Shown: positions 1 through 13,608 of the stretch, piece by piece
How the letters are laid out: each line of letters begins with the position of its first letter
How positions within the stretch are numbered: position 1 is the first letter of the stretch
Source: Hyphomicrobiales bacterium
GTDB taxonomy: Bacteria; Pseudomonadota; Alphaproteobacteria; Rhizobiales; Xanthobacteraceae
Reading direction: 5' to 3'
Length of the DNA stretch: 13,608 nucleotides
Assembly: GCA_017304505.1 (NCBI GenBank)
Contig: JAFKKQ010000053.1
Span: 1-13,608 of the forward strand
Notes under the pieces: generated by a model
Database searches by the model: none
Seen by the model: the letters and a program-made list of their open reading frames with translations, nothing else
Told to the model about the DNA's origin: nothing
Translations under genes and position numbers: made by a program

Positions 1-875
1 ACCCGCGCTCGATCTCGTTCTTCGATTGCTCGGGCGAACATTCGCGCGGCGTGCACCAGCTCTGGTTCTGCGACGGCGAATACGTCCACATGGCGTCGGG
101 CGCACCGGATTTCCTGCCGACGCATCCCAACGACGACCAGTTCTACCGCTGCATCGACGTGCGCAATCCGTCAAAGCCGGTCGAGATCGGCCGCTGGCAC
201 ATGCCGGGCACCCGGCAGGGCGACAACACGCCGCCGCCGCCGCGCCATCCGCTCGACAAGGGCTACCGCGCGCACAACTGCAACGTCTATCCGCAACGGC
301 CGGACCGCTGCTATCTCGGCTACATCGACGGCGGCATGCACGTGCTGGACATTTCCGACAAGTCGGACCCCAAGCGCGTCACGTCGTGGACCAACTCGCC
401 GCCCTACACCGGCTTCATGCACACCGTGGTGCCGCTGTTCGACCGCGGCCTGATGCTGGTCACCGATGAGTCGACCGAGAACAACGCCAAGGACTGGCCG
501 AAGCTGATCTGGGTGCTCGACGCGCGCGACGAGAGCAATCTGGTCCCGATTTCAACCTGTCCGCTGCCCGACCACAAGGCTTATGCCGCGCGTGGCCGGT
601 TCGGCGCCCATAACATCCATGAGAACGTGCCGGTGCCGACCTCCTGGCAAAACGACCAGATCGTGCTCGGCACCTTCTTCAACGGCGGCTTGCGCGCTTA
701 CGATCTTTCCAATCCATTCCAGCCGCAGCCGATCGCAACCTTCGTGCCGCCGGCCCCTCCCGGCGCGCCGACCGGAACGATCCAGCTCAACGACGTGTTC
801 GTCGACGAGCGCGAAGTCGTCTACACCGTCGACCGCCACATCGGCGGCCTCTACATCCTGGAGATGGATTTCTGA
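1..875 (+). CDS. LVIVD repeat-containing protein (5' truncated)
   Basis: The reading frame is open from the first full codon at position 3 to a TGA at 873-875, so this is the C-terminal part of a longer protein and the true start lies outside the window. At least three segments fit the LVIVD repeat pattern (hydrophobic strand, Asp, short polar turn, Pro, then a strand): 'CIDVRNPSKPVEIG', 'VLDISDKSDPKRVTSW' and 'AYDLSNPFQPQPIATF'. The protein ends in a further strand, 'LYILEMDF'. Such repeats build beta-propeller-like folds, often in secreted or surface proteins. The substrate and role of this family are unknown, so no function is assigned. The N-terminus is missing, so a signal peptide cannot be judged. 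A hairpin follows 39 bases after the stop, before the downstream GTPase gene on the same strand. Confidence 0.8.
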   Translation, partial: PRSISFFDCSGEHSRGVHQLWFCDGEYVHMASGAPDFLPTHPNDDQFYRCIDVRNPSKPVEIGRWHMPGTRQGDNTPPPPRHPLDKGYRAHNCNVYPQRPDRCYLGYIDGGMHVLDISDKSDPKRVTSWTNSPPYTGFMHTVVPLFDRGLMLVTDESTENNAKDWPKLIWVLDARDESNLVPISTCPLPDHKAYAARGRFGAHNIHENVPVPTSWQNDQIVLGTFFNGGLRAYDLSNPFQPQPIATFVPPAPPGAPTGTIQLNDVFVDEREVVYTVDRHIGGLYILEMDF

Positions 876-6788: not shown

Positions 6789-7676
6789 ATGGCCAAGAAA
6801 CCCACCACGAAACCCACCGAGAAACCGACCGGGAAGCCCGCCGACGCGCCTTCGCTCGGCGACCTCCGTAAGGAAATCGATCGCATCGACGAGACGATGC
6901 ATCGGCTCCTGATGGAGCGCGGCGACATCATTGACCGGCTCATCAGGGTCAAGAAGACCCAGGAGTCGGGCTCGGCGTTTCGTCCGGCCCGCGAGGCCGA
7001 CATGATGCGCCGCCTGGTGCAGCGCCATCATGGCATCCTGCCGCTCGACACCGCCGAAAGCATCTGGCGGGTCATCATCGCCACGTTCACCCATGTGCAG
7101 GCGCCGTTCTCGGTCCATGCCGACCTGTCGGCCGGCGACGCACCGATGCGCGACAGCGCACGCTTCCATTTCGGCTTCACCGTGCCGTTCGTGCCGCACA
7201 TGGGTGCGGCCGGCGTGGTCGAAGCGGTGTCGGAATCCAAGGGCGACCTCGGGCTGGTCCCCGCCTTCGCCACCGGCCGGGGCGCGGCGTGGTGGACCGC
7301 CCTGGAGTTCGAGAGCGCGCCGAAGATCATCGCCCGCCTGCCCTTCATCGACCGCCCGGACCATCCGGCCCCGCTCAATGTGTTTGTGGTGTCGCGCGCC
7401 GCCGCCGACGCGATGGTCACCGAGGTCGAAACCTGGAGTGTCCGGGTGTCCGGCTGGGGCGCTTCCGCGGCGGCGGCCGTCGCCGCCCTGACCGAAACCA
7501 TCGCGGTGCCCGACAGCGCCTTTGACGGCGCCGCCCTCCTGGTGTCCGTGCCCCCTGGCGGCAAGCTCGCCGACGTCACCCGCGCCCTGGTCGATGCCGG
7601 CGCCTCCGTCCGCTCCACGGCCCTCGTCGGAAGCCACGCGACCCGCTACAAGGTTCCTGCCAACAAGGGCGCCTAG
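6789..7676 (+). CDS. Chorismate mutase (AroQ type) with long C-terminal region
   Basis: 295 residues. After a Lys/Pro/Thr-rich head (residues 2-17) comes an AroQ-type chorismate mutase domain (about 22-104). Residues matching the E. coli active site can be placed: Arg27 (R11), Arg44 (R28) and Lys55 (K39), with identical spacing, and Arg68-Glu69 (R51-E52). It converts chorismate to prephenate. The remaining 190 residues resemble the order of a prephenate dehydratase domain, with a GDLGLVPAF stretch, a VFVVSR strand and an ACT-like end. They lack the substrate-binding TRF motif and the usual GTFS start, so dehydratase activity is unlikely. AAGGG at 6776-6780 is a good ribosome site. It is the first gene before hisC-tyrA, with a 178-base gap. 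Possible roles for the tail are allosteric control or partner binding (inference). Confidence 0.9.
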   Translation: MAKKPTTKPTEKPTGKPADAPSLGDLRKEIDRIDETMHRLLMERGDIIDRLIRVKKTQESGSAFRPAREADMMRRLVQRHHGILPLDTAESIWRVIIATFTHVQAPFSVHADLSAGDAPMRDSARFHFGFTVPFVPHMGAAGVVEAVSESKGDLGLVPAFATGRGAAWWTALEFESAPKIIARLPFIDRPDHPAPLNVFVVSRAAADAMVTEVETWSVRVSGWGASAAAAVAALTETIAVPDSAFDGAALLVSVPPGGKLADVTRALVDAGASVRSTALVGSHATRYKVPANKGA

Positions 7677-7854: not shown

Positions 7855-9039
7855 ATGACCGCGACCCGCCCTGAACCACGCCCCGGTGTGCTTGCCATCG
7901 ACGCCTACGTCCCCGGCAAGAGCAGCGCCCCCGGCGTCGAGAAGATCTACAAGCTGTCGTCCAACGAGACGCCGCTCGGCCCGAGCCCGAAGGCGGCCAC
8001 GGCCTATGCCGCCGTGGGGCGGCATCTGGAGGATTATCCGGACGGCTCGGCCTCGGAATTGCGCGAGGCGATCGGCCGCGTGTTCGGGCTCGACCCCGCG
8101 CGCATCGTCTGTGGCGCGGGCTCGGACGACCTGCTCAACCTGATCGCGCGGGCCTATCTCGCCGACGGCGACGAGGCGATCCACACCACGCACGGCTTCC
8201 TGGTCTATCCGATCGCGACGCTCGGCACCGGCGCCAAGCCCGTGGAAGCGCCGGAAACGGATTACACCGCCGACGTCGACGCGATCCTTGCGCGTGTCAC
8301 GCCGAAGACCAAAGTCGTCTTCCTTGCCAACCCGAACAACCCGACCGGCACCTACCTGCCGTTCGACGAGGTCAAGCGCACGCCGAAGACCAAAGTCGTC
8401 TTCCTTGCCAACCCGAACAACCCGACCGGCACCTACCTGCCGTTCGACGAGGTCAAGCGGCTGCACAAGGGCCTGCCTCCGAACGTGCTGTTCGTGCTCG
8501 ACGCGGCCTATGCCGAATACGTCCGGCGCAACGACTACGAGGCGGGGCTTGAGCTGGTCGCGACCAGCGACAACGTCGTGATGACGCGCACCTTCTCCAA
8601 GATCCACGGCCTCGCGGCGCTGCGGCTCGGCTGGATGGTCGGACCGGCGCATGTGATCGACGCCATCAACCGCATCCGCGGGCCGTTCAACGTCAACAGC
8701 GCGGCCATCGCGGCGGGCGTCGCGGCCATCGAGGACACCGCGCACCAGGAACGATCGCGCGAGCACAATTCCAAATGGCTCACGTGGCTGACCGAGGAGA
8801 TCGGCAAGCTCGGCCTCAAGGTGACGCCGAGCGTGGCGAATTTCTTGCTGATTCATTTCCCGCAGGACAAGGGCCGCACCGCGGCCGACGCCAACGCCTC
8901 CCTGATGAAGCGCGGACTGATCCTGCGGCAGGTCGGCGCCTACAAGCTGCCGAATGCTTTGCGCATGTCGGTCGGCACCGAGGAGGCCAACCGCCTGGTG
9001 GTGCAGGCGCTGGCGGAATTCCTGGAGAACGCGAAGTGA
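7855..9039 (+). CDS. hisC: HisC-family histidinol-phosphate/aromatic aminotransferase with internal tandem duplication
   Basis: 394 residues; without the duplication it would be 367, the usual length. It is a fold-type I PLP aminotransferase. Visible are [11 protein letters not shown] (35-45), Asp216 in DAAYAEY, which contacts the pyridine nitrogen, the Schiff-base Lys249 in TFSKIHGLA, Arg257 in RLGWM, and the carboxylate-binding Arg370 in LRMSVGT. Residues 149-175 are repeated exactly as 176-202, so the NPNNPTG loop occurs at 159-165 and 186-192. The enzyme makes histidinol phosphate from imidazole acetol phosphate. Its place between chorismate mutase and tyrA suggests it also, or mainly, transaminates aromatic keto acids such as phenylpyruvate or hydroxyphenylpyruvate. 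The start at 7855 has AAGGA 6-10 bases upstream. Whether the enlarged protein still folds is uncertain, since the extra segment repeats a core strand and loop. Confidence 0.93.
8298..8459 (+). repeat. Exact 81-bp tandem duplication inside hisC
   Basis: Bases 8298-8378 and 8379-8459 are identical over 81 bases, directly adjacent and in frame. The next base (8460, g) and the base before (8297, t) break the pattern. The unit encodes 27 residues from the Thr before [11 protein letters not shown] to DEVKR. No synonymous change separates the copies, so the event is very recent or is an assembly artefact. Confidence 0.97.
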
Positions 9040-10010
9040 CACCGCTGCAACAGCCCCTGTTCAACCGGCTGGCGCTGATCGGCTTCGGCCTGATCGGCGG
9101 CTCGATCGCGCGCGCGGCACGGGCGCAAGGCGCGGTGCGCTCCATCATCGCCACCGCGCGCTCGCCGCAAACCCGCAAGCGCGTCGCCGAACTGGGCATC
9201 GTCGATCAGGTGGTGGAGACCAACGCCGCCGCGGTCGAAGGCGCCGACCTCGTTATCGCCTGCGTCCCGGTCGGCGCTTGCGGCGCGGTCGCCAAGGAGA
9301 TCGGCCCGCACCTGAGCAAGGGCGCCATCGTCTCCGACGTCGGCTCGGTCAAGGGCTCGGTGCTGCGCGATATGGCCCCTCACCTGCCGGCGGGCGTGCA
9401 TTTCGTCCCCGCCCACCCGGTCGCCGGGACCGAGGATTCCGGCCCCGATGCAGGCTTCGCCGAATTGTTCGTCAACCGCTGGTGCATCCTCACGCCGCCA
9501 CCCGATGCCGACAAAGCGGCGGTCGAGAAACTCAAGACGTTCTGGAGCCATCTCGGCGCCAACGTCGAATGCATGCCCGCCGCCCACCACGACCTGGTGC
9601 TCGGCATCACCAGCCACTTGCCGCACCTGATCGCCTACACCATCGTCGGCACCGCCGACGAACTGAGCAGCGTCACCCGCTCCGAAGTGCTGAAGTTCTC
9701 CGCCGGCGGCTTCCGCGACTTCACCCGCATCGCGGCCTCCGACCCGACCATGTGGCGCGACGTGTTCCTCGCCAACAAGGACGCGGTGCTGGAGATGCTC
9801 GGCCGCTTCAACGAAGACCTCGCGGCGCTGACCCGCGCGATGCGCTCGGGCGACGGCCAGACGCTGTTCGACCATTTCGCCAGGACGCGCGCCATTCGAC
9901 GCGGCATCGTCGAGATCGGCCAGGACTCGCCCGCGCCGGATTTCGGCCGCAGGCAGCCGACGCTGCCGGCCGAGCCGCTGCCGCGACCCTACGCCGCCGA
10001 CAACGAGTAG
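9036..10010 (+). CDS. tyrA: Prephenate/arogenate dehydrogenase
   Basis: 324 residues from a GTG at 9036 that overlaps the hisC stop in the sequence GTGA. GGAG at 9024-9027 supports this start and implies translational coupling. The N-terminal Rossmann domain has GFGLIGGS at residues 16-23. DVGSVKG is at 101-107, and the catalytic His127 lies in [10 protein letters not shown]. The alpha-helical C-terminal half contains SHLPH (193-197) and [11 protein letters not shown] (230-240), where Arg231 is placed to bind substrate. It oxidatively decarboxylates prephenate or arogenate towards tyrosine. There is no ACT domain; the protein ends in a short Pro-rich tail. Whether NAD or NADP is used, and whether arogenate is accepted, cannot be fixed by eye. 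The gene is the last of the block and is convergent with the DUF3551 gene five bases away. Confidence 0.93.
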
Positions 10011-13025: not shown

Positions 13026-13608
13026 TCAGGCCACGCCAAGGCGTTTCAATTCGGCTTGCCCTTCGGCGATCAATCTCGCCGTTGCCGTTTCGATCTGGCT
13101 TTGCATGCGGCGGAAGAATTCGTCCTTGTCGAGGCCGGGTGGAATCGGTTCAAGGAACTCGACGACGATGGTGCCGGGCAAGCGCCGGAATGCGCGGCGC
13201 GGCCAGAACAGACCGGAGTTCAGCGCGACGGGAATGCACGGCACGCCGATCTCGGTGTAGAGATACGCCACACCATACTTGTAGCGTGGCTCGGCGCCCG
13301 GCGCACGTCGGGTGCCCTCCGGGAAAATGATGAGCTGGCGACCGCTGCGGATCTCCTCGCGCGCCCGCGCGGTCATTTTGGCGAGCGCCTGCGAACCGGC
13401 GGAACGGTCGACCGGGATCATGCGCCCCTTCGCCATGAACCATCCGAACAGCGGAATCCACATCAGCTCGCGCTTGACGATGAAGGTGAAGTCCTCGAAC
13501 AACCGCAGCAGCGCGAACGTCTCGAAGATCGACTGGTGCTTGGCGGCAACGATGAGCGGCCCCGCGAAGCGCGCGCCGTTCAGCCGCTCCAATCCGCGAA
13601 CCTCAAGG
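13026..13608 (-). CDS. plsC: 1-acyl-sn-glycerol-3-phosphate acyltransferase (PlsC family, 5' truncated)
   Basis: The frame is open from the window edge (first full codon 13607-13605) to a TGA at 13028-13026, giving 194 residues. The start lies outside. The PlsC motifs are present in order: KHQSIFETF with HX4E instead of the usual HX4D (motif I), KGRMIPVDR (motif II), IIFPEGTRRAPG (motif III) and VPCIPVALNSG (motif IV). It transfers an acyl chain to lysophosphatidate at the inner membrane to make phosphatidate for phospholipids. The VRGLERL stretch before motif I is usual for PlsC and shows that the TTG at 13592 is internal, not the start. One or two N-terminal membrane segments should be coded beyond the window. 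Confidence 0.9.
   Translation of the reverse strand, partial: LEVRGLERLNGARFAGPLIVAAKHQSIFETFALLRLFEDFTFIVKRELMWIPLFGWFMAKGRMIPVDRSAGSQALAKMTARAREEIRSGRQLIIFPEGTRRAPGAEPRYKYGVAYLYTEIGVPCIPVALNSGLFWPRRAFRRLPGTIVVEFLEPIPPGLDKDEFFRRMQSQIETATARLIAEGQAELKRLGVA

Follow-up and report, generated by a model that had tools for sequence, protein, structure and literature searches.

Exact in-frame 81-base tandem repeat in the hisC gene of a Hyphomicrobiales metagenome bin, probably introduced during assembly

The hisC gene in a 13,608-base stretch of Hyphomicrobiales DNA (the window, meaning the whole stretch analysed) carries an exact 81-base tandem repeat, in which no letter differs between the copies and the reading frame is kept. 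We regard the second copy as probably an error of metagenome assembly, which is somewhat likelier than a real allele. Reads of two co-occurring strains would have been merged inside hisC, and a local join or gap-filling step would have written the 81-base stretch twice; the sampled genome would then hold an ordinary hisC with one copy. We infer the strain mixing, the step at which the error entered, and a cause shared by the repeat, the mosaic composition of the gene and a false flank elsewhere in the assembly.

Results

Tandem Repeats Finder reported an array at 8298-8459 with a period of 81, 2.0 copies, 100% matches and a score of 324, whereas the second-ranked of its nine arrays in the window scored 64. 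Two exact 81-mers side by side lie far outside what chance would produce. When shifts of -4 to +3 were compared directly, one register alone fitted the two identical 81-mers. By its coordinates the unit begins at the third base of codon 148 (Table 1), and 27 residues of the product (149-175) recur as residues 176-202. The preliminary description had reported an exact in-frame tandem duplication of 81 bp in hisC, and both Tandem Repeats Finder and the direct comparison bear this out. The junction between the copies (8378/8379) contains no N, and the remainder of hisC has neither stop nor frameshift; a random insert length would preserve the frame with odds of one in three. The intact frame and the junction without N argue against an assembly error and speak for the main alternative, namely that the tandem duplication is genuine, in frame and of very recent date in the population sampled. 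Such a duplication would most likely harm or inactivate the enzyme and be on the way out through precise deletion or selection. We consider this alternative a substantial possibility, less probable than an error of assembly. Since the copies are wholly undiverged, the event would be recent if real.

Table 1. Positions of the features discussed (in the window, unless another contig is named)
Feature	Position	Strand	Basis or remark
81-base unit, first copy (HisC residues 149-175)	8298..8378	+	Repeat finding, direct comparison
Second identical copy, residues 176-202	8379..8459	+	Repeat finding, direct comparison; exactly 81 bases absent in 10/10 congeners
hisC (394 codons in this assembly), histidinol-phosphate aminotransferase	7855..9039	+	Reading frame, profile match, homologues
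Interval where the product switches from the P0011 match to the P0001 match	8083..8259	+	Protein level only
Chorismate mutase-domain protein, upstream of hisC	6789..7676	+	Reading frame, domain
Prephenate dehydrogenase (tyrA/tyrC type)	9036..10010	+	GTG start overlaps hisC stop by 4 bases
Join error, G000 contig C431 (L185)	567-597		15-base repeat around one N

The run of matching positions between the copies was exactly 81, indicating that there is no additional homology at their junction, and no short direct repeats were found bordering the unit. Of random 81-base units drawn from hisC, 46% likewise lacked junction homology and 3% had four bases or more. Thus, if the repeat is real, its breakpoints look random and not made by slippage. 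For a real allele the lack of homology is neutral where breakpoints are random, unlike slippage between short repeats, against which it counts. It also counts against the idea that hisC is switched reversibly on and off as slippage adds and removes the copy, which the preliminary description had suggested, since nothing at the junction would drive repeated gain. A switch would be suited by the precise loss that exact tandem copies can undergo, and by the duplications in pneumococcal capsule genes that were reported to cause phase variation (Waite et al., 2001, 2003, as cited in excerpts of PMC4022640). However, hisC is presumably a housekeeping gene of amino-acid synthesis, its product being a core biosynthetic enzyme and hence an unlikely switch, and no two-copy relative was seen among those examined. 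The switch found no support in our results, and we hold it to be extremely improbable.

The product scored 307.1 bits against the NCBIfam hisC model TIGR01141 (cut-off 276.55), the match falling in two stretches because of the insert, and it also lies within Pfam PF00155, with the whole gene assigned to HisC. Known HisC structures were recovered when the sequence was searched against solved structures, and they too matched in two stretches. Most listed HisC homologues have 367 residues; the window's product, with 394, does not have the uninterrupted aminotransferase core of about 367 residues. The start of the prephenate dehydrogenase gene (GTG, 9036) is our choice of frame start, and the nearest tyrA product differs from the window's at 2 of 324 residues. 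The chorismate mutase-domain protein carries short Lys-Pro-Thr repeats close to its N-terminus (6792-6844).

Every relative examined had one copy. In all ten congeners the protein match broke at or beside residues 175/176, and the DNA alignment showed a single gap of exactly 81 bases (10/10). In a sample of the family, 118 of 119 genomes had a match at E 1e-50 or better; the match was single and continuous in the window's own genome only, and all 117 others were aligned in pieces (115 in two, two in four), as counted from the complete per-genome table. A GTDB scan gave a HisC frame with one NPxNP[T/S]G motif in 80 of the 80 loci kept of 443 relatives found. Among the best 120 of 8000 scored homologues the duplication was not found: 118 had one motif, P0042 had no motif hit owing to a one-residue variant, and P0014 had two owing to a partial repeat of period 138. 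A two-copy protein would rank at the top of this list and none stood there, which suggests that, within the reach of these searches, no other record shares the duplication. Near-identical one-copy proteins (P0001) were present in other metagenomes. The presence of one copy in all relatives favors an assembly error, and the absence of any other record with the repeat among those examined weighs against a real allele. The preliminary description had left a choice between a very recent event and an assembly error, and the identical copies together with the second copy's absence from all relatives support it. An old, fixed duplication, which the same description would have recognized by two copies in orthologues, is rejected, as the orthologue comparison gave one-copy relatives only.

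P0014 is a HisC homologue of 503 aa on a 1909-base ENA contig. The parts of its internal repeat, whose period is 138 residues, are identical at 115 of 138 positions and begin at a 13-residue segment; it is perhaps a chimera of two alleles.

The repeated segment is strongly conserved. In an alignment of 47 sequences (the window's product and 46 hand-picked from the 120 listed, 84-98% identical), 20 of its 27 residues were invariant and three more nearly so. In the weak model of P0001 the segment spans a predicted strand, the NPNNPTG motif and the beginning of a helix; we take this motif to contact the cofactor in fold-type I aminotransferases. A functional 394-residue HisC could in principle use one of two equivalent strand-loop segments with the other looped out, as the preliminary description had also suggested, and the kept frame, the unchanged motif residues in both copies and the lack of a stop or frameshift elsewhere would agree with it. 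However, such strong conservation speaks against a two-loop enzyme, as does the absence of the insert from all homologues examined, and we judge it very unlikely. The AlphaFold2 model of the 394-residue form was poor (mean pLDDT 50.9; the one-copy P0001, given the same 46 homologues, reached 65.8); the direction fits a disturbance, both models being too weak to count as evidence, probably because the alignments held close homologues only. If the repeat is real, an impaired or null allele is likeliest.

A second hisC, proposed for search in the preliminary description, was not detected in the 79% complete bin, where the next matches had E values of 7.6e-9 or weaker. Three of the four next-match frames were scanned: other aminotransferase or MocR-like models ranked first, and TIGR01141 was outside the 25 best models for each. 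The fourth frame, in contig C431, contains the join error described below. The lack of a second hisC to cover a loss weighs against a real allele, and the position of the insert in a conserved part of the only hisC detected favors an assembly error.

The gene is a mosaic of two protein types. With one copy left out, its product matched P0001 (26 contigs) without a difference from residue 77 through the C-terminus, and it was identical to P0011 over residues 1-135. The types switch 39-215 bases before the repeat, and the left flank of the repeat (residues 136-148) is already P0001-like, so the switch is not at the repeat itself. We took a protein to join both parts if it matched at 74 or more of the 76 N-terminal and 188 or more of the 192 C-terminal positions; this was true of none of the 120 listed homologues (of 8000 scored). 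In the three listed homologues that reached 75 or more of 76 N-terminal matches, the C-terminal matches did not exceed 180 of 192, and in those with 187 or more C-terminal matches the N-terminal ones did not exceed 68. The meeting of two types so close to the repeat, joined in none of the listed proteins, favors an assembly error, and a strain-chimeric assembly would produce such a mosaic. However, natural recombination would do so too, and the switch is off the repeat. Along hisC, the ten congeners were 75-93% identical in DNA per 150-base bin, with no clear step at the switch. At the protein level, congener G004 had 94% identity over residues 1-175 and 88% over residues 176-391, and the other nine had 85-87% and 79-88%, respectively. 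These identities are compatible with both a natural and an artefactual mosaic.

The host genome is a bin from environmental DNA with 550 contigs and 3.08 Mb, 79% complete and 1.6% contaminated, so that a fifth of the genome is absent from it. The contig (C325 of G000) has 15,321 bases and 69 N directly after the window (13608/13609), indicating that it is a scaffold. Fragmentation and N runs point to a short-read origin. A scaffolded bin of this kind favors an assembly error. The true gap at 13608/13609 would be about 66 bases by four congeners (G001, G002, G004 and G007; error 3 bases) and about 53-54 by the other six (error 15-16). We fetched 128 of the 550 contigs, of which 34 were mostly N; the 94 readable ones comprised 721,493 bases. 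At C431:582 the same 15-base flank precedes and follows a single N, throwing a class I aminotransferase out of frame. The 16 positions concerned were absent in nine of nine congeners with a match (of 10), which indicates a scaffold-join error. This false join in the same assembly also favors an error in hisC.

However, several properties of the assembly argue against such an error. Another exact tandem repeat with a period of 40-699 was not found in the 94 readable contigs, indicating that the assembly does not often make them; this also speaks for a real allele. The sample held nine N runs, seven of which were checked for shared flanks, with C431:582 as the one case, and three of which were compared with congeners. 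Besides the gap after the window, their lengths were in error by 16 bases (9 congeners) and 8 bases (8 congeners). All N-run errors measured (3-16 bases) are thus far below 81. The readable contigs had one exact contig-end overlap, of 48 bases, so 81 fits no overlap seen. An assembly word length (k) of 81 was considered as the source of the repeat length and was not supported, since the only contig-end overlap was 48 bases and the flank repeat 15 (94 readable of 550 contigs). Moreover, an exact 81-base overlap should merge easily, and short-read assemblers tend to collapse, not expand, exact repeats, which we count for a real allele.

Discussion

Our results favor an assembly error in hisC. 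If this is right, it is a reminder to seek read support for exact in-frame repeats in metagenome bins before building a functional story on them. If the repeat is real, we would be seeing a core-gene duplication, probably short-lived, at one moment in an uncultured population. Tandem duplications that knock out bacterial genes have been described before (excerpts of PMC4022640), including a 5-base duplication in rcsB (excerpts of PMC5343319). Intragenic duplications are known in pneumococcus, in cap8E/wchA, in tts and in the type 3 capsule locus (Waite et al., 2001, 2003; excerpts of PMC4022640), and the example of wchA speaks for a real allele. No report of a histidinol-phosphate aminotransferase with a tandem duplication was found by title or abstract start in one open-access library.

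A natural HisC with two identical, interchangeable copies of the cofactor-loop strand, one of them folded in while the other is looped out, so that histidine and aromatic amino acid synthesis is adjusted or switched by the number of copies, is highly improbable in our view, and we found no support for either the switch or the two-loop enzyme. Were the two-loop form true, improbable as it is, it would give new insight into how aminotransferases tolerate insertions in their core.

Compared with HisC as defined by TIGR01141 and PF00155, the whole gene belongs to the family, but the window's product has 27 extra core residues. The duplications in pneumococcal cap8E/wchA, tts and the type 3 capsule locus resemble the repeat in that the copies lie within the frame, and the gene is impaired there. 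However, they were described, in the excerpts of PMC4022640, from cultured isolates with capsule loss, whereas the hisC repeat comes with no isolate, phenotype or junction homology. In comparison with duplications from scaffold joining or gap filling in short-read metagenome assemblies, such as the flank at C431:582, the hisC repeat has no N, is five times longer and is in frame; it shares with them the exact copy, the absence from relatives and the scaffolded bin.
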